Shown here piece by piece: positions 12,501-63,898 of a stretch of DNA of 64,000 nucleotides. This DNA is from Muricea muricata. Its lineage: Eukaryota; Cnidaria; Anthozoa; Malacalcyonacea; Plexauridae. The stretch is taken from positions 15,784,960 through 15,848,959 of the forward strand of contig OY979717.1 of the NCBI GenBank assembly GCA_963855995.1, written 5' to 3'. Below the pieces are notes generated by a model. It was not told the origin of the DNA, did no database searches, and saw nothing but the letters and a program-made list of their open reading frames with translations. The position numbers were made by a program, and so were the translations under genes. Numbering within the stretch: position 1 is the stretch's first letter; each line of letters opens with the position of its first letter.

Positions 12501-15500
12501 GATGCACTTTATCATACTGTGCGCTTCCTTTAGCGCGTCATTTTACAGTTTACAAAAACAGAAATGGCGCGTTGTGCCTCTCATCGCTGAAACCAAGTCT
12601 GGTGTGGTATCTCTTGTGAATTGAGTACCCTAGTTGATTTCTCTTGTTCGTCGGGAGTTTTTCTTAGGGGTACCCCGGCTTCCCTCCCTCTTTATAATCA
12701 ATAAGCAATCTTTTCCACGGTAATTTCCCACCGTTTGCTTTCCATACATAGAGAAAACAGACGATGATGATGCGTTAATCTTCCAAGCAGTTAGTGAACT
12801 ACCAGCAGCAAACAGAGATACACTTGCTTATCTCATGGTACATCTACAAAAGTAAGTGGGTTTATAAAGCCCGTTTTCCACTTCAGTCGTATCGTTGTGA
12901 AACGTAGCGTATTTCATTGTGTTAGGGAAGCGAAGCAAAAGCATGAATTAAGAAACGTGATTGGTGACAAATGACGTTCCCAATTTTTGTGTTCATTGCG
13001 AGTGGCGCGAACAAATTCGCTTAGTGGAAAACCGGCTTTAGTCTATAGTTGAAACACTTGCGACTGTCATATATGCTCAGCCTTTGAACGATTTGATCGC
13101 AGAAAACGTCAAATTTTGTCCCGTGTTTTACTTTTCTATTGCTCAAACCCCATTATGCGTGAATTTAAAGATGTTGTTTTTTTTATTGTATTCTATCAGA
13201 GTTGCACAAAGTCGCGAATGTAAAATGCCAGCTGCAAACATCGCCAAAGTATTCGCTCCAACATTGGTCGGCTATAGCAGTCCTCATCCGGAACCAGTTC
13301 AGATGTTGAGCGAAGCCAAAGTTCAACCAAAGGTTAGTAGATACAATTATTGCGCGATTGTATACACTGTGTGAACTTTGAAGTTTATATGTGCTGTGTG
13401 GCAAGAGCTTAAGAGATTACAATTTATTGAAGATTTTCAGAAGAGGGGAAATCCTGGCCGTTTGCATGCAAATTATGCAGCATTTTTTGGTTGCGGTATT
13501 TTACAGTTTGAATATAATGTCGTGCGCATGACTAAGATTTGCCACATAAGTTGCTACATTTATATTTCTCATATTTAATTCAAATGCCGTACGGCACTGA
13601 ACACTCTTTAGCAAAGCGAGTTTAAGTGCAGTCCTGACCTGTTATACTTTAGTCTACTCAACATGTCTTTCATACCAATGACATTTCTTTAAGATTGTGG
13701 AGAAATTGTTGTTAATGCCGGCTGATTATTGGAATCAATTCCTTCATGTTCAAGAGGAGAATATCCGATCGCCTCCTTATAATCCCAACACCCACAACTC
13801 TGACGGAACACCAAAGACACCGCAAGGAGTGACCGGTAAGAGAAATAAAACTATGAATTGTTCAGTAACGGCGGGTAGCGTAAATGATGTCTCCCTTTTC
13901 TTTAATTAAATTAAAGTATGCATATTTTGCGAGAAACGTTTGTGTTTGAACGAAGTTCTATTTTGTATTTTGATGTTGCTTTCAAGGTTTCTATAAAATA
14001 TTAGTTGAGACATTGAATAACTCTCAAATAAACCCTCGTTTCAAATGCAAAATAAGGCTTTTTTAAAAAACTGAAAATTAAATTAAATTAAATCATTTGC
14101 CTTCATATTTTTTTTGCATGAAAAATCAATTAAAATCGGTGAATATTTATCATTTATTATATTGTTATGGGTGTTTTACCGCAAACTAAAACATTCGTAT
14201 TTTCCATATTTTCACTAGTGAAAAAAATAACGCTTGAAAAAAGCTTGGGATTTCCTGCGGGATTTCTATGTTTCTGTTAGCTTGTTCCGACTTCTGATTC
14301 TTCTTGTTTTCACTACTTAAAAATAATAATCATATCTTCGCGACAATATCAATCGTATCTTCAGGACAATATCATAAATATCCCTCGTTCGCTGCGCTCA
14401 CTCGTGACATTTGTAATATCGTCCCTCAAGCGATAAAACTAATATCGCCTTGCCCCTTATATGATAACCTATACTTATGGACCCAAAGCAAGGTGATCCG
14501 GCTAAATATCGACCGGAAGTGACGACATTTCCCAAATGCTTTAGCCCCAGGAAAATATCATCACTGAGGGTTCATATTTTACCGAATCACCAGAGCGGAT
14601 GGTTTATAAATGTTATATCATACCGAAAATTTCAACATGCGAAGCTAGTTTGAGCAATACTGAGTCAGAAATTTAAAAACACCATTTTTCATTGCTTTTA
14701 ATCGGTGGTAGTGGCTCTCGCAGGATGAATTTAATATCACAGTGGGATAAACATAATATGATCAACCTCGTCCCCAGGGACATCTGTGTGGGCGCAGTGA
14801 GGAAATAGATGACCCTGGTAAAGGCTGTAAAAATCTCCAAGATTCTAGGAGATTTTCGAGCATGCGCCGTCAGTGAATAATGTGGCGCTGACTCAAGTTA
14901 CCACTGGTACAGAGCATTGGCGTGCAAATTTTCACAATGTATACAGAAATTTACGCTCACATAAAAACAATATTTAAAAGAATGTTTTTTAAGGTGTGAT
15001 ACTCAACATTAAAAAACTATTCAAACCAACCACAAGTTGTACATAAAAGCCCCAATCTAATAAATGTGCTGAAAACAGGAAGTAATATTATGCTGTCATT
15101 TCGTTAAACCAATCACACTTATTGTCACAAACCCGACTGGTCGAATGTGTTAACCAATGAACAAGGAGATTACGACAGCCTTTACTAGGGTCATCTATTT
15201 CCTCACCGCGCCCACAAAGATGACCCTGGGGACGAGGTTGATAATATGATCACATCCTCGTCTCGAAATACGGGCACAGGGCATGCGATACCAACTCACA
15301 TTGTGACTAGGTACAAGTTTTTTTATTGGACAATTTGAATTTAAGGTATAATATTTTTTGTTAATGTTAGCTCCTGGTGGCAGCATGCTTGGTCCTGCTG
15401 GGAGTGGGGAAACGCCAGGCAGCAAATCAATCAAGAAGAAAGGCAGCTTACTTAGTAGAACACCTCTTACTCCAAGGTAAGTTGAGAAACGAAAAACAAA

Positions 15501-18408: not shown

Positions 18409-21400
18409 ATGAATTTTCCTGGAAGTTTTAACCAATCAATGCCAGAGTCGAATAAAACACCTGGGAAAAGAGATATGGGAAATGTTGACTCCTCGGTGGA
18501 ACAACCAAATGACCCAGCCAAGAAACTAAAAAGTTCGTATAGGGTAGGTATATTTTCTCGTGGAATACATGTGTTGGTACGGACCAATTCAGTATAGAAT
18601 TTATACTTGAAATTATCTTTTATCATTCAGGAGGAAAACCCGACAATAAACCCAGCAGAAAGTAGTTTTGAACAGCAAGATTATAATTCAGGTATAGGGT
18701 TTTGCTATAGGTTGTTGCTACACTACAACTGAATGCAGTATTTTGATTTTGCCACCTTTGTAATTTTACTAATTTCGCAACGCTCTTTCTAGCTGTGTTG
18801 ATTGATTTATTTCTCTTTGAATAGACTAGCATTTATTTGATTATGTGCATTGTCGATAGAGAGTAGAAATATTTTTCAGCTCAAAATATTGAAAACTTTT
18901 ATCAGAACATGCTACTTACTACATGACGTATTAAAAGAATCATAATAAGTTGCGTGGGCTTATTTCCACGATTGCGGATACCAGATCCTTTGTACGCTCT
19001 CTATTTATGCTCTATTCAAGCTATCGTCACCAAGCCTGTCTTTAAGCACACTATTTTAGCGAGGCTCGGTTTTGATTTCCACTTCCGCTCCATGGTTTAC
19101 AAGGAACCTGATTGATTAATCGGAACGATACGACAAATCTGATTGACTAAAAGATGGATCAAAGTCAAGGTTAAGCGGCAGGGTAGACAGTGAAAGTCAA
19201 ATTTGAGCCTCGCTATTGTTTAATCGGCACGAATAACAATCAAAATGCAAAATGTAATAAAAATCAAAATTATAATCCCACATGTGACAAAGACGCTAGG
19301 CTATATAGGTATGCACTTCAGACCCCATTTACACGGTACCGGATTCCGATTCGCTTGGTCACGACATCGAGTTCGGGTAGATTGCAGTCTTATTTACTCT
19401 CACCACTTTTTTTCTATGACTACTTGTTGTTAAATTCTGCAATACTATCGTAAGTGTAAGAGCCACAATTTACGTGAAACTATTCAATTTGATATCATCA
19501 GACATGTTTGATATTTGGTACACATGTCACGAATGATGAAAATGCCGTAAATGTTGCCCGCACACGATGAAAGTTGGTCGCTCCAACTGGTCACAAATAT
19601 GAAGTACGCGCGTCAAGTGCGCTCGACGTGTGCGGCTGGCTTAATTTACTGTTAGCTTGGTACGCACGGTATATTGTTGTTGAACTCCGGTCCTTTATTT
19701 GTTTCTATACCTTGCCAAAGCCGTTGGCTCAATTCCTCTTAAATCTCATGTTACCTGGTTTATCTAGTCTCTTTTGTTAATGCTTTTTGTTATGCTTTGT
19801 AAGAAAGTCATTGTGGACAACTGTGGCACAAAAGTCAACAGAAAAAGCATTTTGCATCGTTGAGATTGTGGATCAATCCCCACACACGGACCAGCGTTCG
19901 AATTATAAGATGCCTTTATTATATTGGACTCTGGGCATGTTATTTCTTTCTCTCTCGCTTCAGTTAACTGGTCATAATGCATTTTCGTAAATGTGCTACA
20001 TTTCTCTCATGTCATGTATTACGGTTCACTGGTATACTGTAATAGATTATCTTTTCTATAGAAAACTGCATGGAATCTGCTTGCAAGGCAAGAAATAACT
20101 TAATGCCTGGGCCAATCAGTGCGCCCAAAATGGACGAAATCCTGCGAAGTAAGACTATAAATTGTTTCACTGGCTTCATGCCAGGTTTTTTTTAATTTTA
20201 AAATGCAGAAACAGTTGGGATATGCCATAGAAAGTGGAAATTCTATCTACGATTTTTTCGCGCTCAAGCAATCAAAAACTATGATTTTATGTATCTTGGT
20301 GTATTGCACTCAGGTGAAAATGATGTCTATGGCGCTACTCTGAGTTTATGTTTACTCCAGGCAAGTATATGTCACATATCACAAGATATCACATACTCGA
20401 ACTAACCTGACCGCCTAGCTCAGTTTATATATGGTTGGGCTAGCATTCCAAAGGTTGTAGATTCAGGCATATTTTTCAGCTTTCCCGGTATTGATATAAA
20501 CATTAGCGCAACACCAAAAATCATTTTCACTCGAGTTCAAAACACCATATGCATAAAAATCATGATTACATATATAGTTGACCTGTGGAAGGACTTGCAT
20601 GGGATTAGAAATTTAAAGTTTTAGTAACTTGATGATTACGCATCTTTTCTCAGCTTCATTTATAATTTTAGAACTTGGACAGGATGCTAAAATGTCGGTG
20701 GTGAAATGGTTGCCACTTTTCGGGTGAGTTTTTTTTAGCCCTGGGGCCAGTTGTTCAAAGCTGCATGGGTTAGCGCTAATGCCGGGTTAAAATTTAACCC
20801 AATGTTTTAGTTTCTGTATTTCTAGACGTCTGTTTCTTTCAAAACTTCAGATACCAAAACTTCTGTTGATCCATACAAGATTTCTGAAGAAATATTTCTA
20901 ATCTTTCAAACAAGCTGCTGCATGGAAAATTTCTCTTGGATCTGACCTTACAACATGGTTAAGCTAATCTGCTTTTGAACAACTGGTCCCTGCTGTTTGC
21001 CTTTCGCCACTATCGATAACCAGAACTAAAATGGAAGTAATTTTGTAGCCGAATAAGAGCTAATATACAGTGATTATGGGAGATCAAAATCCAACTTTCG
21101 TCCAATAGAGGTTCACACAATTTCCATATTGATTTTCAATTTAATTTTTTCCCCCGTGACAGTTTTAGTTTTGCTGCACGGTCTCAGTGGCTAATTAACT
21201 CTTTTGGACTGCATCCAGTCAATTTGAGGTAGCTGAGACACGATGTAGGGTCTCACAAGGCAGTGAAATCTTGAGTGGTACTTCGTCGCAAATCGTCAGC
21301 ACTCAACTTTCCCAAGACACAATAGTTTTCGAGTTTGTTTTTCTGCAAGGCAAAAAATTTTTAACGACAAGGGGAGAAAACGGAGAGTTCCTTGGGCTGG

Positions 21401-21666
21401 AGACGCTTTATCTTATTGTTACGCCACTGCATCGTCTAATTTACTCTAATTAGCGTTCATTTGTTTAACGCCCCCTACGCATGGTGAACGAGTTCCTGTT
21501 TTGATGATTTTGTTGTAGTGAAAGTGAAGCTTTTGAAGCATGCTGTGGTGCCAGATTGGACGAGATCTTGAAGCAGGCACTTGATTTGGAGCAAAACTTG
21601 ATTGAGCAAAAGGAATGTTTGAGAGCCAGAATGAAAGCGGTTTCCAGAACATTAATGGCACCATGA
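18409..21666 (+). CDS. TEX12: TEX12-like synaptonemal complex central element protein, 6 exons
   Basis: In vertebrates TEX12 pairs with SYCE2 to build fibres along the central element joining homologous chromosomes in meiosis. Exons: 18409-18543, 18631-18691, 20062-20148, 20314-20360, 20683-20723, 21519-21666 (TGA), in frame, 172 residues; human TEX12 is 123. The last exon encodes LDEILKQALDLEQNLIEQKE then CLRARMKAVSRTL, which aligns without gaps to the vertebrate C-terminal helix (about 13 of 33 residues identical by eye, as I recall that protein) and keeps its heptad spacing. The N-terminal half is polar and poorly conserved. The ATG follows directly after a CAG acceptor-like site, so a 5' untranslated exon, or more coding sequence, may lie upstream. 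The fourth intron is ambiguous: a GC donor at 20361 with acceptor 20682, or a GT donor at 20365 with acceptor 20671 (five residues longer); both keep frame. The main doubt is that short coiled coils can resemble each other. Confidence 0.8.
19057..19215. repeat. MITE-like inverted repeat in TEX12 intron
   Basis: TAGCGAGGCTCGGTTTTGA at the left end pairs with TCAAATTTGAGCCTCGCTA at the right end. It is about 159 bp, non-coding, and lies between TEX12 exons 2 and 3. Confidence 0.65.
20741..20992. mobile_element. MITE, family B (GGGGCCAGTTGTTC)
   Basis: The left end CTGGGGCCAGTTGTTCAAAG pairs with the right end TTGAACAACTGGTCCCTG. It is about 252 bp and inserted in the last TEX12 intron, 17 nt after the donor. 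The same family occurs at 22115-22366 and, truncated, at 10090-10275. Confidence 0.8.
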
Positions 21667-22114
21667 GTTCGAATGTTACGTTTAGTAAACCTTATTCCAC
21701 TTTTCTTATGTTAAATCGACACCTGTTAACCGGTGAATCATTGGCAAGTGTTTATTTATTTATTAACCTTATTGCTCAATATAATAACAAATGTCTGATA
21801 CATTTTGAAACCGTAAGTAATACTATTTGGAAGCTTTTAGTACCTACTGACAACCCTTGTGTTTGACGGCTGTTATAAACTATATGTCGGAACAAGCACT
21901 GACGTATGTTGTGCTAACAAGCCTTAAAAACAAATGATAATTATATAAATAAGTACTCGCCCCTCAAATTATCGAAGTTTAATTGATAAAGTTCCTATCC
22001 ACATTCCTATGGATCTGCCTGCTCGTTCAGTCGTAGTATCACATTCTGCATGCCACTAGCCATTTTCTAATTTTTCTTCGATATAATGAACTTTTCGGAA
22101 ATAATGGTGGCAGT

Positions 22115-22366
22115 CCTGGGGCCGGTTGTTCGAAGCCTGTTTAGCTTAAACGGTGGTTAAGCTCAAAACAGAAACCAAGTTTATGGATTCATTCAACAAC
22201 CAAACTAAAAGCTTTGATTACCGTAATAGAATGATTATGCTTACAACTACATATTTACTGCAAAATATTTAAGTTAACTGTTTAACGAGTGATGTATATA
22301 AGAGTGTTATTTAATTTTGACTTATCCATCGTTTACGCTAAAAGGGCTTCGAACAACCGGCCCCTG
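22115..22366. mobile_element. MITE, family B (GGGGCCGGTTGTTCGAAG)
   Basis: The ends CTGGGGCCGGTTGTTCGAAG and CTTCGAACAACCGGCCCC are inverted repeats. It is the same length, about 252 bp, as the copy at 20741. It lies in the 1.6-kb intergenic space between TEX12 and the HDAC start, the rest of which (21667-23285) shows no gene. Confidence 0.8.
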
Positions 22367-23285
22367 GAAAGCTACTCTGCTTTGCACAATGAAATTTCAT
22401 AAAGCAGATCGTATCTAATCATTGAATCCTAAGATTGAATCATTGAAATTTGACGTAAATGCGACATCTAAAAAGGGCCGAAGTCATGTCTTTGCGAAGA
22501 CGCACGTGTCTCTTGACTTAACAAACTGTTATTTTTGCTAATAATACGTTTGTGGGTGTATAATCCACGGTTGCTAGAACACCGTCTCTACAACAGAATC
22601 AAAATTCGAGTGGAAAAACTTAAAGATAATGAAGGAGGCCCGTACGGCTGACCCCACTACGCTGACCCCCGTGAGTTTTGTAAATATATTATATATCTTG
22701 GCAGGTCGACCGTTTGACTTATTTCGTCGCCCGTTCGCAGGCTAACATCATTGCTCTAGACATTTCAGATCTCGATTGCTTAATTTTGGTAATACATATG
22801 CCTAATATTTAGCTTACTCGAATGTTTTATACCGCTAACAGATGAGAACGTCTTAAAATTACTTAATAATATCGGATTAGAATGTCATGCACGTCTCGTT
22901 TTGAATTTGAAAGGTGTTTGTTTGCCAATGTCTAAAAATAGAACACATTGTGCATATTCGGGCTGATAGCAGGCAGATGTAGCATACACATATCTTTCGC
23001 TTGTCTTGTATTTTAACATTTCGTTGGCATATTTTGTTGAAAGACTTGTTATTTGGTTACAATACGCGAAAGAATGTTGTTCCCAAATCGTACGGCGTCG
23101 TGTTTGCTTGGGTAAATTAAAATTTTGCTCTCATTTACCGTTGACAAATGTGCTGTTCATCTGTAAATGTGATATAGTATGCTGCGAATAGTAATAATGG
23201 AGTACTTAAGCCAGATTCAGATGCACTGAAACAAGGAGCTCTTGCAGCGCTATTTGAAGGCGACAAAGCAAGGTCTAACCACGGC

Positions 23286-38200: not shown

Positions 38201-41200
38201 GTCTGTGGTCTCAGTATACGTATTCCTATTTTCGTAGTTGTGTAATAAAATTAATTCAATATGTAAACGATATTTATACACGACTGTGCGAAGATATGAA
38301 TTTTATCTGCGACTGGAGAACAATGTTTTATACGAATTAGCGCAGCAACTGAGGTACACCACGAGAAGATAAAATTCATATCTTCAAATCGGCGTATGTA
38401 TAATGTTCTGTTTATTATATTTTGTTGTAAGCAATTTAAAAACCCACGTCATTATATAGAGGATATTATGCACGCGCATAATATCCTCTGTATAATGACG
38501 TGGGTTTTTAAATTTAATATGAGGCGCGAAGATAAGATTATATTTTCGAGTGGTGAAAATATGAGTGTTACAATTAATAATTTTTTTGCCGGTCGTGTCA
38601 AAACGCACTGGTTTTATACCTCAACTAATTACATTTTAGTAGAATCATACTAGTATACTATTGCAAATGCTGTAATTTGATTGGTTACTCTACTCGCTAT
38701 CTATTCCTCGATAGATAGCGAGTAGCGAAACAATCATCTTCCTATAGAGATTTCTTTTAAAAAATTGCTTAAAAATCAAATTTTTTGTTGAATATTCCAT
38801 GTTTGACCTCTGATTCTATCACCGCATAGAAATCTCGAGCTCGTAATCTAATTGTTAAGTATAAACTGAAAGAATACCTGTGTCTCATTTTGGAGTTTCT
38901 TATGTAACAACTTGTCGTTTTTCAAAAACGCGATCGTCTTTCTTTGAAAAACATCAAAATCGGTATGCTGCTCTATCGGCGGGAAATGATAACTTGATCG
39001 ATACCTTCGCCAGTGATGGCATAAAAAATATCTCTAAATATGTATATTCTCGTGGAATTAACCATTTCTCCGAATCGTATTTTTCTAACCCTCATATTGC
39101 ATATGCAAGCACAACATTCTGCATGTCTATAAAATAATTATGATAAATTCATTTATGCATTCAATCACATTAGGCCGTAGTGCGCGTTTGGTCGCGGACC
39201 ATTTTGGTATTAAGGTCCTGTCACACGGTGCAATTTTTCTTGGAACTGCAATGCAATTCTACTCTTGAGAGATGTAAAATTGGCAAGTACATGTTACCAT
39301 CAGAGTTTGCTAATATATTTTTAACATACCGAACATTTGTCACAAATTTACATCTGCGTTGCAATTTGCAAGAAAAATTGCACCATGTGACAGGGCCTTT
39401 ATTGTTCAACACAGAAGGCTTTATGAACCACATTTTTGCGTAGACATACCCCAGCCTCGTCCCCGGCGCTTTGATGTTCTTGTGATGTTAATTCTACGGC
39501 AGTGCGTGGGGTGAGTCATGCGCGCCCTGACAAAGTCTACCACGTATGTGTATCCGCCATAGAACATCAAAGCGCTGGGGACGAGGCTGGACATACGCCA
39601 CGCTGATATAAATACCCTGATGACTGTAGTGATCGCTAGATCACTAGAACTCATGCCCCCGCACGGACAGAAATCGGGGGTTCGCGAAGCGGGTGTAATG
39701 GTAGTATACGTTTTATATACGTGGGGAATATAGTTAGATTATGAAATAAAACACATAAAACTTATACAAAATCGCATTCATAACATTGGCGACGAGGATG
39801 GCTACTACTCTAGTTAATCCAATGCCGCCGTTCGACCCTGACGCGGAGATTGGAGTGAATTTAGCTCCCAAATGGAAAATATGGCTGCAAGATTTTGAAA
39901 TGTATCTCGTGGCAAGCGGGGTCACAGATAACAAGAAGAAAAGAGCGCTATTACTTTACCAGGCTGGGCCACGGGTACGTGAAATTTTTCGCCAGATTCC
40001 TGATCACGGAGACGACGATGATTTCGATACGGCAGTAAACAAATTAAATGCTTATTTCGAGCCACAGAAGCATCGTTTGTATGATGTGTACCAGTTCAGA
40101 CAGGCAAAGCAAGGTGAAATGGAAACACTCGATCAATACTACACGCGGTTAAGAAGTTTATCCCAAAATTGTGATTTCCACGACCCCGATTTCGAAATTA
40201 TGGTTCAAATTGTTCTATATGGAACCTCCAGTCGACTAAGAAAACAGGCTTTGCGTGACCCGAAAGTAACACTAGAAACACTTCTTATAACTGGCCGTCA
40301 GCTCGAGCGAAGCCACGTACAAGCGTGACATATTGAAGAGAAAGTACATACAGTTGAAAAAGATTCTCCGGTAATACAAGCTCTTAACGACCGTCGTCGT
40401 ACACGTACTGTAGCGAATATGTGTCGAAATTGTGGAGGTGAATGGCCTCACACAAACAACCCGTGCCCTGCAAAGAATAAAGAATGTCGAAAATGCAAGA
40501 AACTCAATCATTTCGCCAGGGTTTGTCGGTCGGAAATATCCAGGTCAGAGTACAGCCAAGCAAAGCCAAAGTCGGGACAACAATATTCGACCTTGTTAAC
40601 ACTTCAAATCTCAAAGAAACCAGTAGTGAATCAAGCGACTCTGAATATTGTTATGCGGTAAATGCAAAACAAAGTAAGTCACCTGTCACCAAATTAAAAG
40701 TTAACAATCAGAAAGTGACATTTACCGTAGACACTGGTTCAACCATTAATATCATTGATGAAAATACCTTTAAAACACTGGGAGACATAAATTTGAAAAA
40801 AAACAAATATTAAAGCATATCCCTTTAACTCAACCGAGTCAGTAAAAATGAAAGGGAAGTTCCAAACATGGGTTGAATCTCGCAAGCGCATTACAGTTGC
40901 TACGATATATGTCACAGAACAGGATGGTGGCTGCTTACTTGGTCACAACACAGCACAAGAATTAGGACTCATAAGCTTGCATTTAAACAAGATTGGCACG
41001 TCAACAAACTTCCGCAAACAAAACAACACAACCAACACTCACCCTGTCAAAGATAAAACTGTACAGAACTTGCTAACTAAGCACAAGTGAGTATTTGAAG
41101 GAACTGGGAAACTCCAAAACAGGCAAGTTGAACTTATTGTGGACAGAAGTGTCAAACCAGTCGTACAGCGACAACGAAGAATCCCCTTCCATTTACGAGC

Positions 41201-44200
41201 CAAAGTCAATGGTGAGTTAAATCGCTTGGAAGCAGAAGATATAATCGAGAAAATACCAGACACTGAGGAAACACCTTGGATATCACCAGTAGTTATAGTA
41301 CCAAAAAAGGAAGACAAAATTCGTTTATGTGTGGATATGAGGGCAGCAAACAAAGCTATAAAACGAGTTTGTCACCCAATTCCCACAGTACGTGACATTT
41401 CGATGGATCTCAATGGGGCTAAATTTTTCTCAAAGCTAGACATGTCACAGGCCTACCATCAGCTTGAGCTCGCACCATCATCACGGAACATTACAACCTT
41501 CATCACACATGCAGGCTTATACCGATTCAAGCGCCTCAACTATGGCACAAATTCGGCTGCCGAAATTTTTCAAAATACCTTGCAGCAAGTTTTACACGGC
41601 ATCAATGGCGTCCGTAATATTGCCGATGACATTCTGATATATGGGGCAACATATGAAGAGCACAACAAAGCCCTCAAAGAATGTCTTCAAAGATTAGAGC
41701 TTCATGGATTGACTTTAAACTTAGACAAGTGTAGATTCCTCAAAAACCACTTGGAATTTTTTTTGGCCTGCATGTTATTCTCGCACGACGGCGTACGTCC
41801 AGACCCCAAGAAAATCTCTGCATTCAATAACACCACCACCCCAACTACAGTTGGTGAAGTAAGAAGCCTTCTAGGTATGGCAAATTATAGCTCACACTTT
41901 ATCTCTAACTTTGCCACGATTACGGAGCCTTTACGGCGGCTGACCACAAAGAAGCAAAATTTATTTGGGGCAAAGAACAGGAAGATGCCTACCAGAAGCT
42001 AAAAACAGCCTTAGTCAATAGCCCGGTCATGGGCTATTTCGACACAAAAAACGACTCAGAGTTAATTGTGGACGCGAGCCCCGTAGGATTGTCTGCCATC
42101 TTGGCGCAAAAACCCCCAGGAGAAAATGCTCCATCAAAAATCATCGCCTATGCTAGTCGTGCATTGACACAGACTGAACAAAGATACTGCCAAACAGAAA
42201 AAGAGGCCCTAGCAATTGTTTGGGGGATTGAGCACTTCCACTTATACCTGTGCGGAGCTCCATTTACCCTATACACTGACCATAAAGCACTCGAACTGAT
42301 ATTTGCAAACCCCTTGTCTAAGCCACCAGCTAGAATTGAACGGTGGTTACTCAGATTACAAGAATACGATTTTAACGTACTGTTCACCGCTGGCAACAAA
42401 AATCCTGCTGACTTCTTGTCACGGCACCGCACAGAGGGTAGGAAATCAAAACATAACATCGCAGAAGAATACATAAATTTCGTAACAACTGCAGCAGTAC
42501 CACACAAAATGAACGTTGAGGAAATTATTCAAGCCACAGAGAAGGATGAAGCTCTGATTGTCCTAAAGAATGCTGTCATGTCAGGCTCGTGGGACAACCC
42601 TAAAGTAAAGCCTTATAGAATGTTAAAGGATGAGATTACCATCGACCACAACAACAAGATACTCCTGCGTGGTACTCGTATTATCATACCAGCATCATTA
42701 CAAAAACGCACCATACAGATCGCCCACGAAGACCATCAAGGTCAAGCAAGAACAAAAGCCCTCCTAAGAGAAACGGTGTGGTTCCCTGGCATGGATAAAC
42801 AGGTTCGGACTGAGTTAGAACATTGTTTAGCTTGTCAAGCCACGGCACAACCTAATCACCCGGAACCGATCAAAACAGCGCCAATGCCTAATAGCCCGTG
42901 GGATAAAGTTAAAATAGACTTTTATGGTCCACTACCAACTGGACAGTATATCTTGGTGGTAATTGATTGTTATTCACGATTTCCCGAGATCGAGATATTG
43001 ACCACCATATCAGCTCAAAAAGTCATCCCTAAATTAGATAGTATTTTTGCCCGTCATGGTATTCCCTCACACTTAACATCTGATAACGGTCCACCTTTCC
43101 AGAGTCACGAATTCGGACGGTACATGACAGCGATGGGAATTACACACACGACATCGACACCCCTCTGGCCTCAAGGGAACGCGGAAGTAGAGGCGTTTAT
43201 GAAGCCATTGGGCAAAGCCATCAAAACAGCACATCTTGAACGTCGACCATGGCAGCAGGAGCTATCGCGCTTTCTACTCACTTACCGTTCAACACCACAC
43301 TCAACCACAAAAGTTCCCCCTGCTCAATTGCTTTACAATCGTGAAATAAGGGGAAAACTTCCGTCGTTACCGAGAAACCACAAGGTTGTCAATCGTCACC
43401 GTGAAGCCAAAGAAAATCAAATCAAAGCTAAGGATAAAAGTAAAGAATATGCGGATCAACGTAGAGCTACGAAGTCAAGCAATATTAAAGTAGGAGATAC
43501 CGTTATCGTTAAACAGCAAAAGAAAAATAAACTGTCAGCAAACTTTGCAACAACACCATACACAGTTATATCCATCAACGGATCCACCATAGTGGCTGGA
43601 AATAAAGATCACAGAATCACTAGAAATAGCTCGTTTTTCAGGAAGGTTCCCAGTGATATAGAAAGTGGAGAAGAAGAAGAATCGGTCATTTCACAACCTC
43701 TCAGAAGAGAAACCAGAACAGGTCACCGGGAAGATCGGACAGGAATGCCAGAACAGCAAGATGAAGTAATGCCGCCTAGACGTTCATTAGAACAGCAAAA
43801 CGAGGCAGCGCCGAGGAGACGATCAACGAGAAATCGAACGCAAACCGAATTCTTCGGGCACCCAATTACCTCTCACGTGATTAATTAGAAGTGCTAACAG
43901 GGACAGTGACACTGAATTTAACACTACATAGCATAATAATGTAACATTTATATTTATTCTGGTTTCAGTGTACATTAAAATCAGGTTAGGTTATATTCCA
44001 GTTTTGTTAAAAAGAAAAAGAGAAGTGATGTAGTGATCACTAGAACTCATGCCCCCGCACGGACAGAAATCGGGGGTTCGCGAAGCGGGTGTAATGGTAG
44101 TATACGTTTTATATACGTGGGGAATATAGTTAGACTATGAAATAAAACACATAAAACTTATACAAAATCGCATTCATAACAATGACGTATGAAGTGTAAA

Positions 44201-59200: not shown

Positions 59201-62200
59201 GCGCATACAGGTTTTTCAATGACTTGGCCTCGCCGCGTATCACGCGAGTGCTCCTGTTTGAAGATAAAGCTATTATTGTGCAATATGTTTGCTTTAATTT
59301 ATCACGACCTGCATCATTAAAAGTATACTGATATAAACTAATCCCCAAACGGAAACTTCTTATTTGGTATATCTTGTCCCCTCCTCTTTTTCAAGCTGTT
59401 GTGTCTTGTGCACTGAAAAAGCAGTTCGGAAAGTGCCTGTAAGTGAAATATTTTAATAGTTATGTTACGAATCGACTGTAATTAAATTCTCGCACGTGAT
59501 TTAGCTCTCCAGACTTTTAGATCTTCTCCATTGGCGACTGCGTTTTTGGAGCAGGCTATGTTGAAATGTTGACTGAAGTGTGATTAAGAATTGAAAATTA
59601 GCAAATATAACTGATATAGATCTATACTGCATTTTGAGATAAACGGAATCACGGTGCTACAGACGAAGATTTCTACAAGGGCACGAGGCTTGTATATAAA
59701 TGTGCCTCGATATGAGAAATTGTAGGGTACTTACTGTACACAGGTAGCAAAGAAAATCAACAACTTGGTGTGATATTGATAAAAAGTGATTAAACCATGT
59801 TTTCTCCTCGCATTTATCATAGTTGTCAAAAACATTGTCATTGTGCAACATTGTTATACCTGCTTCAGGCTCAAAAGTCTAGATATTTACCAAAATTCTC
59901 TTCACAAGAACTTGTTGTCTGGTTCTATTGTACCGATGACCGCCTGGGAACCGCTGCAGTATTACTTTAGATTCGTTTCTCTCCTGAACAAATATTTTTT
60001 CACCTGCCTTTATAGTATAGGTTTGACAATTTAATTTAGCTCTGTTGTCTACAAATCACGCTAATCTCCGCGCTGTCGAATTCTAATCTATTTTAAACCA
60101 TAAACATCAATAATTGTATCATGTGTATAGACAACAAGTATTATATCTGATAAACATTATATACCCGGCAATCTGATTCTGATCTTTTCACTATCACAAA
60201 TCTGCCGACGGCATTTTTTGTCCACAAGGACTTGTCAAGGTAGTCAAAACTGCGAAAGCTGCAAATAGCCATGTCTGAGAAAAAGGCTGGGTGGGGTTTG
60301 CCGGGGGGTTGTACATTCCCAGCACCACCCTCCATTAATCAATACCTGTTATACACTGAAAAAAACTTGTTCAGTGCGGAAAAAATGCTAGTTCTTATCA
60401 GCTCTGATCAAGTTTTTCTATTTTTGGCCCGAGCATATAAATTTTGGGCATATGGCGAAACTATCTTATCATGCAAAATATTTCATTGATAATACACTTT
60501 TGTCGCTCCCGTCCGAGCTAAGGCAAGTTAACTGAAGATATAAATACAACGGCATTGCATTATATAGTACTTAAGATATATAGAACAACAAGCTTGCCAA
60601 GTCAAAACTTCAAGTTTTCCTAAAATTCATGCATAATAACATTTTGGTAGAAACGGTGGAAAATTTGAAAAGAGGAAATAAACGGCAATTCTATTTTTAC
60701 CCATGTCCTGCATGATGTTGTTGCGAGTAATTCTTATCCAGGTTTCCTATTCAAGTCAGGTTTTTTATTTTGTAATGGTTATTCATAAAAAATGATAGAG
60801 AATAGGAATGGCACTAAGATTTGAACATAACAACTACTAGCACGATACGATTTGCATTGGGACAGTAGGATTTAGTCAAAAAACTACAGTCTGTTTGGTC
60901 CAGAAGGAATCTTCAGGTGGCAGACCAGTTCTACCACCAGAAGGTTCCTTCTGGATGAAACATGCTGTAGTGGGAAGTTTTTGAGGTATTTTGCACGATT
61001 GCACATGTTGCTCTGTCCATATGTCACATATATATTATATGGTGTAAAAATTGTTACTCAGACAGCTTTTGATGCGTGAACCATTTCTTGTTATTTTTCA
61101 GGATCGTACAACTCCTCCTACACCACATGAAACACGAGTCCTGACACCTTCCGAATCATTACCCAACATTCGCTATGGAAAAGTGACACCAGTTGGAATT
61201 CCATATGTAAGTACTTTACTATCCATATCTCTGTAACAATTTCCTTTTTCAAACACTTTTTTCGTTTAGCTCCTTTGCCCTGAAATACAAGGTATAGTTC
61301 GCAGCTTATCAACTCAAATCACAGCTTATGTACGCTTGTATTGCTATAGCGTAACATATTGCAAAGACTTAATTTCATTACTCGGATCCATAGCTTTATT
61401 AGTTTCATAGTTTATACTCGAGACATCAGATACTAGCATTTCAAAGGCCATAGGTTCGATTCCTACCATGGCTAAACATATTGTTAAGCTACACCAGTGG
61501 AGTATAAACTCAGAGATACTAAGTGAAGTCATGGATGTTTCCAAACCATGGTATGCTAGACAGGTCTTCGTATTTGCGTGAATTCTGTTCTTTGATTAAA
61601 ACAGGGCACTCCTATTTCGTTTGGTGCTGGTAGTCTTCCCAACCTACAGAGCATACCAGGTGCGGCAAACATGGACCAAGCTCAATTGAATCAACTTTTA
61701 TTAAACTCCGCTTTAGTGGCCGGGATGTTGCCACAGAATCCTGAACAAAGACAATTTCACAATCGACTTCAAAATCAAATGTTAAGTCAAGTACTGTCAG
61801 AGGGTATTGACGAGGAGACTGAAGATGGAGTGAATGCAGCAGCTCTCCGTCATGCCCAACTCAAAGCACTTGCATTAACACAGGCTCAGTTACACGCCCA
61901 AACGATAGGCGTTTCCGGTGCTGGCGCTATGGCTGTTAACGATGGTACTAATGTTAGCGGACAACCAAACCCGTTACGCCGAAGCCCGCAGTTGTCTCCA
62001 CCTAGTAGCACTACGGTGAAGCGACACAGACCTCTACGTCAAACGCAATCAGCACCTGGACTATCATTACCCAACAATCTTCATGCGCAACAACAGTTTC
62101 AGAAACAAGCACAGTTGCTATTACAGCAACAACACCAAACACAACTACTGCGCTTACAACAGCAGCAGCAAGCGATGCAACATGAACTCCTACGGCAACA

Positions 62201-63898
62201 GTTAGGTCAACAAAAGTTTGAACAACTGTTGCTGCATCAGTCGAAGTTGCAAGTCGAAAAGGATTCTAAGCTATTAAAAGAACGCCTAGAAGCCCAACAA
62301 ACTAAAGAACTGAACGAGCATTTAGCTCTGTTGCAACAAAAACAAAGAGCGTTAAACGAAGACCAGGAAGCAAATGCTGTCATGGAACAACTTAAACGGC
62401 AACACAATTTGATGCAACATATGATTCCTGAGCGCGTGCATGCACTCCAACCTTCTGCGCCTGCGCATGACTCGAACACTCCGGCACATCGACCACTGTC
62501 GCGCGCGCATTCGTCACCTATCGTTGTGAGTCGTATTGCTGGGCAACCAGCGACCACGGGCCTCGTATATGATACGTTGATGTTGAAACATCAGTGTACC
62601 TGTGGAGATGTTAGCTCACACCCGGAACATCCTGGTAGATTGCAGAGTATCTGGGCAAGATTACAAGAGACTGGAGTCGTGTCACGATGTGAGGTAGCAT
62701 ATCTATATCAATGAACAATTTCTCGAACTAACGTTGCCGGTAGTGCTATAAGATCATTCGCTACTCGAAACAATGTAAACAAGCTAGCTAAGGGTCCATA
62801 ATTCTTTCTTTCTTGGAGAACAAAATTTGGCTTAATATGTTTCTTTCCCCTATGTCTTGAATATTTGATACTGTACAACGACAGTGTGTAGATTTATTGA
62901 GATATACTATAGATATATTTGATGGCCAGTTTAGCAATTCAGAAAAAAGAAGAATAAACTGACAAGAATCAGACCGTTTTCTCTTTGTTTGCGGCTTATT
63001 TATTACGTTTTTCCGTTCTAGCGAGTCAGGTCAAGAAAAGCAACTCTAGCTGAAATTCTTACTGTTCACAGGTAAGCTGAAATGTGTAACCATTTACAGA
63101 GACAACTTTAGGTGCGATTTTTGTACTTTTGTTACGAAACTCTGTACGGGCAAACACCGTATTTACGCAGCAAAACACACGCGACCTGTTCAGGATTAAT
63201 GAAAACGGAATTAAACGATGTTTGACTGCCAACATTGTTCAATGTTGCGAGCATTATTGTTCAACATTATTGGACTCAGCCCGCAATCAGGTGTAAAAAT
63301 GCTGAAAAATACTTTGGCAGCAAGCATTGTTCAATCCTGTTGAACTGCTGGCTCAAGTTTTTTGCTGTGTAGGCGACGGAGACATCCGAAAAAGTATACA
63401 TCTTGATAGTATTTGCATAGATTATTTATTGATATTTGTAAAAATTTTAATATTATTTCCTATTGCAGTGAACAACATACTATGCTGTACGGTGGAAGCA
63501 CACAATTGAGGTCCAGGGGAGAAAATGGTATGATCGCTTCTTTAAGAAACTTCGGATATAATACGGATATTGTCGGGCTACCTTTGTACTTTTGTTGTAA
63601 GATTAATAATATTGCAGGTTTCGAATAGCGGGAAAATACGGTGTTTTGAAAATTCCAATGTGGTTAAAATACCGAATTATATCGGTATTACGGAACATCT
63701 CATGCCGATGTTCATACCGATGCTGGTATTTTCGATATATTGGTCAAACCTACTCGATAGACGATTGTGACCAGCTTATTTTCTTCTATAGGTGATATGA
63801 CGACTTTAAAATGTTTTACCACGCTTGCTTGCACTGGATTGGGAGTTGATGCTGACACGATATGGAATGAAGCACACAGTGCAAATGCGGCCAGGATG
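23286..63898 (+). CDS. HDAC4: Class IIa histone deacetylase (HDAC4/5/7/9 type), 3' partial, 14 exons
   Basis: Signal-regulated corepressor that binds MEF2 and shuttles between nucleus and cytoplasm. It is probably the single ancestral class IIa gene, so the HDAC4 symbol is nominal. Exons: 23286-23310, 30065-30115, 30654-30793, 32060-32215, 33015-33114, 33650-33755, 34325-34422, 45242-45379, 52603-52697, 61102-61206, 61605-62693, 63022-63071, 63469-63527, 63792-63898; 2319 nt, 773 residues in one frame. An in-frame TGA precedes the ATG at 23286 with no other ATG between. Visible parts: MEF2-binding helix [12 protein letters not shown] (exon 33650); FPLRKT then [18 protein letters not shown] and PRRRER, the nuclear localisation region; SESLPNI; Gln-rich segment about 62088-62250; 14-3-3-type sites RQTQSAP and SRAHSSP; start of the deacetylase domain, [16 protein letters not shown] and SHPEHPGR, then [13 protein letters not shown] and [17 protein letters not shown]. 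Active-site histidines lie beyond the window. Confidence 0.95.
23311..25996 (+). other. First HDAC intron, 5' part; nothing recognised
   Basis: AT-rich, with a poly-G run near 24426-24435 and no long inverted repeat or coding similarity that I can see. The tail TTATGCCACTGATTA near 24548 resembles the GCCACTG end of the element at 55892-56060 and may be a relic of it. Confidence 0.4.
25997..26417. mobile_element. Nested inverted-repeat element
   Basis: The outer arms pair: TAAACGCATGGTTTGAGGGA with TCCCTCAAACCATTCGTTTA, and CAGAGTACTACACCGAGGGC with GCCCTCTGTGTAGTACTCTG. Inside, 26215-26298 is a separate strong hairpin (GTTGTCAGGGGGGTGAATGC against GCATTCACCCCCCTGACAAC). It may be one MITE inserted inside another. 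It lies in HDAC intron 1. Confidence 0.75.
27668..28320 (+). pseudogene. Non-LTR retrotransposon (LINE) reverse transcriptase fragment
   Basis: One frame reads [18 protein letters not shown] and then KYVDDSNIM, the GxxxG-P and catalytic YxDD motifs of a CR1/Jockey-like reverse transcriptase. After a frame change at about 27815 it continues [17 protein letters not shown], and after another at about 28020, [15 protein letters not shown] and [12 protein letters not shown], a typical LINE polymerase C-terminus. At least two frameshifts break it. The endonuclease and 5' parts are not seen. The sequence from 26418 to 27667 gave no recognisable similarity. The element is dead and lies in HDAC intron 1. 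Confidence 0.75.
28470..28742 (-). pseudogene. pogo/Tigger-like transposase fragment (CENPB DNA-binding domain)
   Basis: The minus frame reads [19 protein letters not shown] then [19 protein letters not shown], the pattern of the Tc5/CENPB helix-turn-helix of Tigger transposases (QAVLxW, P(V/I)SGxMIQEKA). It stops soon afterwards, and no DDE catalytic domain is found. A second minus open frame at 28791-29024 may be upstream residue of the same element, but I cannot identify it. Confidence 0.6.
28997..29219. repeat. Foldback repeat with internal palindrome
   Basis: The arms about 28997-29059 and 29163-29219 are near-complementary (GGCAATAGAAGCG, ATTCATTTGCTCAA, TAGCAGTT and their partners). 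In the middle, GACCAATCAGAATGCT pairs with AGCATTCTGATTGGTC. Its left end overlaps the end of the minus open frame next to the Tigger-like fragment. Confidence 0.65.
29391..29874. repeat. Inverted repeat pair with ACGAAATTTTGC-type arms
   Basis: The arm at 29421-29487 (TTCGGGCAGGCGAAATTGC, ATTTCGTCCGCACGAAATTT, CTCGACCAAAAC) is repeated inverted at 29809-29874. The loop of about 320 bp contains TTAACCGGCCCC, a fragment resembling MITE family B. It lies just upstream of HDAC exon 30065. Confidence 0.65.
31536..31629 (+). repeat. Tandem repeat, 29-bp unit, 3.2 copies
   Basis: Three adjacent units of the pattern GCTGATCTGCGTATTCTTGA followed by TATAATCTA, plus a partial fourth. The middle unit carries two substitutions. 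It is a minisatellite in the HDAC intron 30794-32059. Confidence 0.9.
33308..33441. repeat. Palindromic repeat
   Basis: TATTGACTGTGCCC pairs with CGGGGCACAGACAATA-type sequence on the right, and AAACAGTATGTTTTGTG pairs with CACAAAACATACTGTTT. It is about 134 bp in the intron just before the MEF2-binding exon. Confidence 0.7.
35385..35492 (+). repeat. Tandem repeat, 18-bp unit, 6 copies
   Basis: Six head-to-tail units of TTCATAATCTAGTCAGAC with single-base variants (CATAACC, CAGAACC, TAAGAC, TGCATA) span exactly 108 bp. It is not a CRISPR array: there are no spacers. Confidence 0.92.
35590..36230 (+). pseudogene. Degraded protein-coding remnant, possibly LINE ORF1-like
   Basis: Frames broken by stops read [20 protein letters not shown]-like text near 35605-35690 (approximate because of frame breaks), then [18 protein letters not shown] and, near 36090-36235, a coiled-coil stretch with [14 protein letters not shown] and [12 protein letters not shown]. 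The protein-like bias and the helix pattern, close to LINE reverse transcriptase remains at 37224, suggest a retroelement ORF1. I cannot name it, and it could be a degraded host gene. Confidence 0.35.
36350..36821. mobile_element. MITE, family A copy 2, with nested insertion
   Basis: The ends AATGGACCATTCCCC and AATGGTCCATT, and the interior (TTGTGAAGTTTGGTTGCAAA and partner), match the element at 8671-9066. The centre differs: bases about 36516-36664 are a separate repeat whose reverse complement is at 45892-46039. Confidence 0.85.
36516..36664 (+). mobile_element. Repeat nested within MITE A
   Basis: It contains GAAATTTTCCGTGTTGAC and GTTATATCAACACGG, which form a hairpin-like pair, and AGAAGAGTGGCGGG. 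Its reverse complement recurs at 45892-46039 with few changes. It replaces the GCGGAAAG-type centre seen in the other family A copy. Confidence 0.75.
37224..37690 (+). pseudogene. Second LINE reverse transcriptase fragment (N-terminal part)
   Basis: Broken frames read [10 protein letters not shown], then [38 protein letters not shown] and [10 protein letters not shown] (37631-37660), which is reverse transcriptase fingers and motif A. The catalytic D of ADF is kept, while the usual following FD is FN. Several stops and frame changes make it inactive. It ends at an 18-C run (37690-37707). It covers the part of the polymerase missing from the fragment at 27668, but the two need not be the same family. 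Confidence 0.7.
37690..37707 (+). repeat. Poly-C tract (18 C)
   Basis: An uninterrupted run of C at the 3' limit of the LINE fragment. Similar C or G runs occur near 24426, 48201, 53991, 55920 and 56023. Confidence 0.95.
38433..38514. repeat. Near-perfect 82-bp hairpin
   Basis: AATTTAAAAACCCACGTCAT then TATATAGAGGATATTATGC pairs with its reverse complement, with a single mismatch that would be a G-U wobble in RNA, around a centre of about 4 nt. It lies inside a larger region with a second inverted pair (GAAGATATGAATTTTATCT near 38290 and AGATAAAATTCATATCTTC near 38367). The HDAC intron would transcribe it. Confidence 0.9.
38690..38725. repeat. 36-bp palindrome CTACTCGCTATCTAT
   Basis: CTACTCGCTATCTATTCC and its complement GATAGATAGCGAGTAG form a hairpin. 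The right half recurs near 1565-1583 (TCGATAGATAGCGAGTAGC), so it is an interspersed family. Confidence 0.75.
39451..39590. mobile_element. Short MITE with CCAGCCTCGTCCCC ends
   Basis: CCAGCCTCGTCCCCGGCGCT then TTGATGTTCT pairs with AGAACATCAA then AGCGCTGGGGACGAGGCTGG. It is 140 bp in total. The tips resemble family C (CCTCGTCCCCAGG). It ends 35 bp before the LTR retrotransposon. Confidence 0.8.
39625..39785 (+). repeat. 5' LTR, 161 bp
   Basis: It begins TGTAGTGATC and ends CATAACA. It is identical to the 3' LTR except for an extra 8 bp near the start (GATCGCTAGATC instead of GATC) and one T/C difference (GTTAGATTATG against GTTAGACTATG). It contains an AATAAA-type signal. These LTRs are unusually short. 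Confidence 0.95.
39787..39797 (+). other. Primer binding site, serine tRNA type
   Basis: TGGCGACGAGG lies one base after the 5' LTR. It complements the 3' end expected of animal serine tRNAs (CCTCGTCGCCA). The gag ATG follows directly at 39798. Confidence 0.8.
39798..40661 (+). pseudogene. gag: gag (capsid and two zinc knuckles), interrupted
   Basis: The capsid-like part runs to a TGA at 40326-40328. After the stop the same frame continues with two knuckles, [15 protein letters not shown] and [14 protein letters not shown] (the second a standard CCHC). The [20 protein letters not shown] segment is typical of Mag-type gag. The frame ends at 40661. The pol frame begins -1 relative to it in the overlap 40484-40661, which may be programmed frameshifting or damage. 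Structural polyprotein that packages the element RNA; likely non-functional here. Confidence 0.85.
40484..43888 (+). pseudogene. pol: pol (protease, reverse transcriptase, RNase H, integrase), broken
   Basis: Domains in order: aspartic protease DTGSTINII (40730); reverse transcriptase (41139-42002) with [29 protein letters not shown] and the catalytic box NIADDILIY (41624); RNase H (42029 on) with [24 protein letters not shown] and YTDHKALE; integrase with an HHCC-like zinc site (HEDH, then CLAC) and DDE residues in [15 protein letters not shown] and NAEVEAF. Breaks: a frame change near the 8-A run at 40796-40803, a TGA at 41088-41090, and a frame change near 41950. The RNase H-integrase part alone is open for 619 codons. 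No chromodomain seen at the C-terminus. Confidence 0.92.
44009..44028 (+). other. Polypurine tract
   Basis: AAAAAGAAAAAGAGAAGTGA directly precedes the 3' LTR start TGTAGTG, where plus-strand priming is expected. Confidence 0.8.
44029..44181 (+). repeat. 3' LTR, 153 bp
   Basis: It begins TGTAGTGATCACTAG and ends CATAACA, followed by the duplicated target ATGAC. One substitution relative to the 5' LTR over 153 aligned bases implies a recent insertion. Confidence 0.95.
44301..44798. mobile_element. MITE, family C copy 2, with insertion
   Basis: It matches 14761-15242 from TGATCAACCTCGT through AAAAGAATGTTTTTTAA. It then carries about 164 extra bases (44536-44699) and resumes at GGTGTGATACTCAACATTAA. 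The right end is shortened, lacking the stretch before the ACGAGGTTG tip. Confidence 0.8.
45608..45666. repeat. Palindrome GTGCTTTATCGGA
   Basis: GTGCTTTATCGGATTTAAA pairs with TTTATATCCGATAAAGCAC. The surrounding 45590-45880 resembles 55400-55615 (ATACGAGC-GGAGT, CTTGAATTATTAAT), a diverged copy of the same repeat. Confidence 0.65.
45892..46039 (-). mobile_element. Inverted copy of the repeat nested at 36516-36664
   Basis: Near-exact reverse complement of that segment (GCTGATTGGCTAAGAGCCGT, CGGAAAATTTCCCGCCACTC). Here it stands without flanking MITE A sequence. Confidence 0.75.
46127..46315. mobile_element. MITE-like element with CCGATCCGAACG ends and telomere-like core
   Basis: CCGATCCGAACGTTGTATTC pairs with GATACGTTCGGATCGGG, and CCAATAAAATTA with TAATTTTATTGG. 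The core holds variant telomere-like words (CCCTGACCCTAACCCTAAC near 46237-46260). It is about 189 bp. Confidence 0.7.
46316..47047 (+). other. Intron sequence, mostly unremarkable
   Basis: No exon or long inverted repeat recognised. Near 46816-46910 there are loose repeats of TATGTCAC-TTGTAG and GTAGTATGCCATG words. Confidence 0.35.
47048..47153 (+). repeat. Tandem repeat, about 32-33-bp unit, about 3.3 copies
   Basis: Units of the pattern CCTCGTGTATCCACTTGTAC then CTGATGCATTGCTG repeat with small indels. The open frame on the minus strand there (repeated SGTSxYTR) is a by-product of the array. Confidence 0.85.
47154..48991 (+). other. Intron sequence, nothing recognised
   Basis: AT-rich, with a G run near 48201-48210. 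No convincing exon, palindrome or transposase similarity seen. Confidence 0.35.
48992..49183. repeat. Foldback element (ACAAAATCGTT/AGCTAAAAAGACC arms)
   Basis: The arms about 48992-49065 and 49100-49183 pair (GATCACAGCTAAAAAGACC against GGTCTTTTTAGCTGTGAT; ACAAAATCGTT against AACGATTTTGT; CAGCAATAGACAATT against AATTATCTATCGCTG), with short bulges. Confidence 0.8.
49424..49613. repeat. 190-bp foldback element
   Basis: AACAAATAGAT...ATTTTGC and TAGATACACGG...GACGTCATAATGTGGTAAGA pair with the right half TCTTACCACATTATGACGTC...CCGTGTATCTA and ATCTATTTGTT. The loop of about 45 nt contains CGCCTTGGCGG. It is a long, nearly complete palindrome. Confidence 0.85.
49614..51829 (+). other. Intron sequence upstream of alternative HDAC exon
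   Basis: No repeat of note up to about 51400. From about 51480 to 51830 it is richer in CpG (GCGTCACAAAGCGCAG, TCGCGTCTAGCGCGGG) than the surroundings, which would suit a promoter for the exon at 51830. No TATA or initiator motif can be assigned with confidence. Confidence 0.35.
51830..51935 (+). CDS. HDAC4: Candidate alternative first exon of the class IIa HDAC gene
   Basis: ATG at 51830 opens [14 protein letters not shown], then a Ser/Pro patch and [15 protein letters not shown], ending TCAG|GTCAGT at 51935. It leaves one base, the phase needed to join the constitutive exon at 52603 (CAG|CCGAGAAC, GCC = Ala). An inner donor C|GTAAGC after 51911 has the same phase and would drop 24 nt. The frame is also open upstream of the ATG to about 51692. 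The product would lack the MEF2-binding and first nuclear localisation exons. Not an obvious match to any vertebrate HDAC N-terminus. Needs transcript support. Confidence 0.55.
52698..54830 (+). other. Intron sequence, nothing recognised
   Basis: Contains a C run near 53991-54006 and no coding or repeat structure that I can name. Confidence 0.35.
54831..55128. mobile_element. MITE with CCCCATACAGACGAGC-type ends
   Basis: AGCCCCATACAGACGAGCAA pairs with TTGCTCGTCTGTAAGGGA, and ATGACAAGTTTT-type subterminal words recur inverted. About 298 bp. Open frames across it are incidental. Confidence 0.75.
55892..56060. mobile_element. Short element with CAGTGGCGTAG ends
   Basis: CAGTGGCGTAG at the left and CTACGCCACTG at the right are exact inverted repeats. 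The interior has C/G homopolymer runs. The GTGGCGTAG tip is common to small interspersed elements in many animals. Confidence 0.75.
56061..57530 (+). other. Intron sequence with a 152-codon open frame of doubtful meaning
   Basis: The open frame at 56387-56845 (+) shows no family resemblance to me, no splice-compatible role and no clear start context. An 18-bp direct repeat GATTTGTGCACGGTGAAG occurs at about 56153 and 56269. Nothing else seen. Confidence 0.35.
57531..57620 (+). CDS. HDAC4: Candidate 30-codon cassette or alternative first exon of HDAC
   Basis: ATGGACCGACG to CGGATC|GTAAGT is a 90-nt open stretch ([20 protein letters not shown], then [10 protein letters not shown]). It ends in phase 0, matching the exon at 61102 (GATCGTACA, Asp). 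Directly before the ATG is AAAG, a weak acceptor, and the previous constitutive exon also ends in phase 0. So it can be either an included 30-residue cassette or a first exon with its own ATG. The donor is a strong consensus. The basic start (RRLRR) could add a nuclear signal. Unsupported by family similarity. Confidence 0.5.
57621..61101 (+). other. Intron sequence, little recognised
   Basis: An imperfect hairpin near 60900-60955 (CCAGAAGGAATC against GGTTCCTTCTGG) and repeated GGTATAC words near 58556-58590. No exon found. Confidence 0.35.
62028..62057 (+). other. First conserved 14-3-3-type site in HDAC ([10 protein letters not shown])
   Basis: Corresponds to the vertebrate RPLxRTQSAP phosphosite used by CaMK/PKD for 14-3-3-driven nuclear export. 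Here the arginine lies one position further from the serine (R at -4, not -3). Confidence 0.75.
62088..62250 (+). other. Glutamine-rich coiled-coil segment in HDAC
   Basis: Long runs of Q, L, K and E (for example [20 protein letters not shown]) with heptad-like spacing. In vertebrate HDAC4 the main Gln-rich helix precedes the MEF2 site. Here the strongest one follows the first 14-3-3 site. Confidence 0.8.
62490..62519 (+). other. Second conserved 14-3-3-type site in HDAC ([10 protein letters not shown])
   Basis: Matches the vertebrate RPLSRAQSSP site just before the deacetylase domain, with arginine at -3 retained. Expected to be a CaMK/PKD target. Confidence 0.85.

Follow-up and report, generated by a model that had tools for sequence, protein, structure and literature searches.

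A probable TEX12 orthologue in the cnidarian Muricea muricata: gene model, intron places and assembly motifs

When eggs and sperm are formed in mammals, paired chromosomes are zipped together with the help of TEX12, a small rod-shaped protein. Does a short helical protein encoded in the genome of Muricea muricata belong to the same family? Or could it look like TEX12 for no better reason than that amphipathic helices resemble one another? We took up this question in the window, the whole stretch of 64,000 nucleotides of DNA analysed here, and in searches of protein databases and of the complete genome. As the preliminary description of the locus had proposed, the gene is in all probability (about 0.92) a TEX12 orthologue, a reading that draws on sequence likeness, reciprocal search, intron places and predicted architecture.

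Gene model and relatives

The TEX12-like gene consists of five exons on the + strand, at 18409-21666 of the window (Table 1). Its ATG lies at 18409 and its stop codon at 21664-21666, in agreement with the extent described earlier. All four introns are of the GT-AG type, and their phases (0, 1, 1, 2) are mutually consistent. The spliced product has 160 residues and not the 172 of the preliminary description; the spliced homologue P0001 is of similar size (162 amino acids).

Three relatives, P0001, P0002 and P0003, were obtained from 12 candidates in a search of 5.8 billion proteins. P0001 shows 77% identity over 99%, and P0002 (140 amino acids) 75% over 86%; P0003 runs on through intron 1 and enters intron 2. 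Both P0001 and P0002 span these splice borders, which lends the splice model independent support. In a scan of viral contigs a peptide pattern was matched in 33 stretches, with no relatives among them.

Could the locus represent a decayed or non-functional copy? Nothing specific speaks for this, and we regard its chance as negligible. The reading frame and the splice sites are intact, and from codon 112 on 45 of 49 residues are kept in P0001 and 47 of 49 in P0002, whereas in the tail the counts are 54 of 84 (P0001) and 34 of 62 (P0002), the pattern expected from selection. All five matches in the animal's own genome (453 Mb, 74 contigs) fall within the TEX12-like locus, and no second copy was found among the six candidates scored there.

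Table 1. Features of the TEX12-like gene, in positions of the window.
Feature	Position	Strand	Content	Basis
Exon A	18409..18543	+	Codons 1-45, from the ATG on; N-terminal tail, predicted to be disordered	Uninterrupted frame ending at a GT donor in phase 0; P0001 and P0003 have homologous residues here
Exon B	18631..18691	+	Codons 46-66 (part)	AG and GT at its borders, entered in phase 0 and left in phase 1; P0001 and P0002 run across both borders
Exon C	20062..20148	+	Codons 66-95 (part); helical core starts	Splice model; P0001 and P0002; helix in the P0001 model from residue 87, candidate residue 86
Exon D	20672..20723	+	52 nt, from within codon 95 to within codon 112; N-terminal core helix	Splice model; vertebrate isoform breakpoints; gapless alignment
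Exon E	21519..21666	+	Remainder of codon 112 to codon 160, with stop codon; C-terminal helix with its tip	Human TEX12 matches here
C-terminal tip, residues 146-157	21619..21654	+	L146, M150, V153, L157 at LFIL positions	Alignment; LFIL role as described in parts of PMC7612376
Residues 138-152	21595..21639	+	N138, C145, A152 at FFV positions; fibre-surface residues not conserved	Alignment; FFV role as described in parts of PMC7612376 and PMC9452514

Likeness to TEX12 in sequence, introns and predicted architecture

A match to the helical core of TEX12 (human residues 49-123) was found, and TEX12 was the best match. Searched against the PDB (177,635 distinct sequences), the candidate product matched two sequences at E<=10, both of them TEX12 constructs, one at E=0.0016 and one at 0.2. 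The first of these carries engineered changes at the FFV positions discussed below (PMC9452514). A four-row profile (A1) returned TEX12 constructs at E=1.1e-4 and 0.02, together with one unrelated chain at E=1, and neither the candidate nor the profile found any other PDB chain below E=1. In a direct BLASTP comparison with human TEX12, whose core sequence was checked, the two proteins align over 65 residues without gaps at 28% identity. Profile-profile comparison (hhalign) extends this to 68 ungapped columns, with a probability of 89.5% and an E value of 2e-6 that applies to a single comparison. The preliminary description had reported a gapless C-terminal alignment of about 33 residues, so the likeness is longer than it had appeared.

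Does the match exceed what chance would produce between two amphipathic helices? The local score of 80 compares with a best score of 72 among 20,000 shuffles that preserve the hydrophobic/polar pattern. With the register fixed at an offset of 36 residues the score is 76, against a best of 73 in 20,000 pattern shuffles; 80 registers were tried, and the second best scores -21. The reciprocal search leads back to the same place. When human TEX12 was compared with the 1664 frames of at least 25 residues in the window, a single frame fell under the inclusion threshold, that of the last exon (E=0.00022), followed by the next frame at 5.5. Across the 453-Mb genome the human protein found one place only, exon E, and weakly so (E=8.2; two first-look candidates scored).

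For comparison across the family, 120 matches were reduced to 27 aligned rows (A4) and then to 23 (A5), hand-picked as 3 invertebrate-type and 20 vertebrate rows, with no fish among the latter. The aberrant isoform P0094 is present in A4 and excluded from A5, and P0003 was excluded from A2, A3 and A5. The vertebrate rows of A4 are 42-93% identical to the first row, as compared to the candidate's 28% over the core, a divergence that, with vertebrates other than fish compared, points to an invertebrate.

The curated Pfam profile gives a different picture. The candidate matched no Pfam family at E<=10. P0002 has TEX12 as its only match (E=0.0027, 18.4 bits, under the cut-off of 27), and P0001 lacks a TEX12 match, its sole match being an unrelated family (E=0.15, 12.3 bits, vs a cut-off of 27). 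The curated cut-off of PF15219 (27 bits) is thus reached by none of the three, whereas the human TEX12 control scores 156.3 bits. Since the Pfam model aligns to human residues 28-111, the conserved C-terminal tip lies beyond it. We do not count the curated score cut-off as a defining feature of TEX12. What the profile has missed is a well supported invertebrate-type TEX12, for which the apparent agreement in intron places argues for true orthology.

Intron 3 interrupts codon 95 (phase 1) and intron 4 codon 112 (phase 2), so that, by the gapless offset of 36, the borders of exon D correspond to human TEX12 codons 59 and 76. Vertebrate TEX12 proteins with altered or apparently unspliced forms break at residues 59 and 76; only such broken rows inform on introns, and most rows are ordinary. 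At human-numbered residue 59 (97 motif matches) we counted D in 75, G in 8, E in 7, V in 4 and A in 3, and a phase-1 split fits because every residue seen there has G-first codons. Residue 76 (96 motif matches) is S in 75, R in 19 and N in 2. A phase-2 split would fit here, since codons that begin with AG can encode either S or R. Seven rows, however, have R-Q-V at codons 76-78, which a plain GT donor within codon 76 fails to explain; these rows would be explained by a GC donor or by a GT donor that follows codon 77. Judged from protein isoforms, the vertebrate introns thus appear to agree in place at both codons, with a phase that fits at 59 and is ambiguous at 76. The chance that two sites both match exactly, with about 195 possible, is about 5e-5, and several times larger if one may slip a codon either way.

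As an observation in its own right, residues 76-77 of vertebrate TEX12 isoforms alternate between SE, RQ and a deletion, a hint, from protein sequences alone, that this mammalian intron may have an unusual donor (possibly GC-AG) together with paired acceptors.

An AlphaFold2 model of P0001 has residues 1-86 disordered, a helix at 87-113, a break at 114-115 and a second helix at 116-161. Its mean pLDDT is 70.3, exceeding 90 along most of the second helix, and its pTM is 0.34. The underlying alignment held 22 other rows, 20 of which are vertebrate TEX12, so the model is not independent of TEX12. The break falls at 77-78 in human numbering. PMC9452514, in its account of the hinge, places this around R78-D82, with the loop modelled at 76-80. 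A homologue with 77% identity is therefore predicted to combine a disordered tail with two helices that are broken at the TEX12 hinge. The residues of the hinge salt bridge, R78 and D82, are not kept: they are S and E in P0001, P0002, P0075 and the candidate (S114, E118). Among the 20 vertebrate rows, Q78 occurs in one and E82 in one; the pair was described for human TEX12 and is not known to define the family. Foldseek returned two unrelated matches at E<=10 and none below 0.001, a result that carries little weight for helices.

We can now return to the possibility that this is an unrelated short coiled-coil protein, TEX12-like only through shared amphipathic helices. Such a protein would account for the missed Pfam cut-off, the 28% identity, the weak genome-wide match and the changed hinge residues. 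It would leave unexplained why no other PDB chain falls below E=1, why none of the 20,000 pattern-preserving shuffles reaches the real score, why the gapless match ends near both C-termini and why two introns appear to coincide in place. We give it a very small chance. No other family fitted better in the PDB or Pfam searches, and human TEX12 does find its way back to the locus, in the window as in the genome; on both counts the TEX12 assignment of the preliminary description stands.

As a TEX12 orthologue, the candidate shares with the human protein (PF15219; PDB 6hk8, 6hk9, 6r17, 6r2f) a tail that is predicted to be disordered, followed by a helical core of about 73 residues that ends near the C-terminus, the gapless core alignment, hydrophobic residues at the LFIL positions, a predicted helix break at the hinge and, apparently, two intron places. 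Unlike human TEX12, which has 123 amino acids, it is extended by a longer tail; it has N, C and A for FFV and S for R78, lacks GLFY and stays below the Pfam cut-off.

Is a TEX12 gene outside vertebrates new? SYCE2 and TEX12 were both first thought to be vertebrate-only, and both are conserved in Metazoa according to Fraune et al., as reported second-hand in the relevant section of PMC4132317 (2014). A non-vertebrate TEX12 is thus nothing new in kind: the preliminary description was right about the gene and not about its novelty. With the invertebrate TEX12 described by Fraune et al. (2013, Genetics 195:781) the common ground is this claim of conservation in Metazoa, taken through PMC4132317. 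In its passage on coelenterates, the table of the latter article names SYCE2 and not TEX12. An excerpt of PMC10341275 has central-element homology reaching to Cnidaria, and SYCP1 and SYCP3 are the only examples named for wider conservation in the corresponding part of PMC4102245. Among the titles listed by literature searches there was no coral or anemone TEX12 study, which is weak evidence of absence. The gene is an ordinary TEX12 orthologue with one mildly interesting twist, and makes a good annotation, not a surprise.

Assembly motifs and meiotic partners

The twist concerns the residues through which human SYCE2-TEX12 assembles, as set out in the assembly sections of PMC7612376 and PMC9452514. 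Human L110, F114, I117 and L121 (LFIL) form the core of a C-terminal bundle, and glutamates at these positions keep SYCE2-TEX12 at 2:2 and prevent fibres. F102, F109 and V116 (FFV) sit on the surface; when they are changed, 4:4 complexes remain, higher assembly of the core is blocked and the full-length proteins form only occasional fibres (same sources).

How much of this is found in the candidate and across vertebrates? The four LFIL residues align with L146, M150, V153 and L157, the L, M, V and L that had been assigned earlier to the hydrophobic assembly positions. Hydrophobic residues fill these positions in the candidate and in each of the three homologues that extend this far; of the 20 chosen vertebrate rows, 16 have LFIL and 4 have LLIL. 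At the FFV positions the candidate has N138, C145 and A152, and P0001 and P0075 have N, C and S. An exact FFV is present in 6 of 20 vertebrate rows, all placental, and three further placentals have FHV, IFA and FLV. Elsewhere we found LSM in four marsupials, HSV in two turtles, two birds, the tuatara and one frog, and HNM in the other frog. From these counts, the LFIL clamp is shared throughout this sample, unlike the FFV surface, which was described for human TEX12 and is not family-wide. The LFIL part of the proposed assembly motif thus holds, whereas the full motif does not, since the FFV surface needed for full human fibres is N, C, A here. Of the two human motifs, then, one is kept in the candidate and in 20 of 20 vertebrate rows, which makes the fibre model testable by comparison.

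By analogy to the human complex, 2:2 rods would arise when the TEX12 core pairs with SYCE2. In meiotic prophase, the tip with L-M-V-L may then clamp these rods, or link them end to end into chains, along the midline of the synaptonemal complex. With no FFV surface, any sideways growth into wide bundled fibres would have to use other residues or the flexible tails, or would be weaker. Could the FFV surface be a late invention of placental mammals? We put this forward tentatively, at somewhat less than even odds. The ancestral SYCE2-TEX12 rod would then have been chained only through an LFIL-type clamp, and the central elements of invertebrates, perhaps also of marsupials, birds and frogs, would thicken otherwise or stay thin strands of 2-4 nm.

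No SYCE2 sequence was among the candidate's PDB matches at E<=10, although SYCE2 chains are presumably present in that database. A query with human SYCE2, a central-element helical protein (PMC7612376, in its description of the complex), gave eight weak matches at E<=10 in the animal's own genome, the best at E=0.23 (11 candidates scored; a single query and an insensitive one). This best match (L006), a frame of 125 amino acids between frames that by eye look RING-type and kelch-type, was taken as a chance coiled-coil match. The SCP-1 profile (PF05483) had no match in the genome, nor any in the control genomes, so that its silence carries no weight.

Might a true relative of TEX12 have changed its job, serving for instance at the centrosome instead of in synapsis? 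Mammalian TEX12 is also found at centrosomes without SYCE2, as stated in a part of PMC8654964; SYCE2 was not found with one human query, and FFV is not kept. Set against this, the SYCE2 search was insensitive, and SYCE2-TEX12 assembly depends on the LFIL positions, which carry hydrophobic residues in the candidate and its three covering homologues. The GLFY motif, needed for efficient centrosome localisation of human TEX12, does not align in the candidate, though it is also missing from two frog rows. We allow a change of role a small chance, and retain a TEX12 orthologue with a putative role in synapsis as the favoured reading.

Neighbouring genes and repeats

The preliminary description had placed the gene between RACGAP1 and a class IIa HDAC, and both neighbours proved real by their PDB matches. 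The RACGAP1 exon lies within 13042-13371, about 5 kb upstream (PDB E=2.6e-13; Pfam RhoGAP at 18.7 bits, under its cut-off of 24.5). The HDAC exon lies within 61596-62711, about 40 kb downstream, and matches HDAC7 and HDAC4 in the PDB at 2.9e-20, with no Pfam match.

Between the TEX12-like gene and the HDAC exon, an LTR-type element occupies 39759-43885 on the + strand, with frames for retrotransposon gag (just under the cut-off), reverse transcriptase, RNase H and integrase. A repeat around GGGGCCGGTTGTTCGAAGC occurs at 20737-20761 and at 22112-22136. Inverted arms of 78 nt, 74% complementary, are found at 22107-22184 and 22298-22375, and the whole is perhaps a small dispersed inverted-repeat element.
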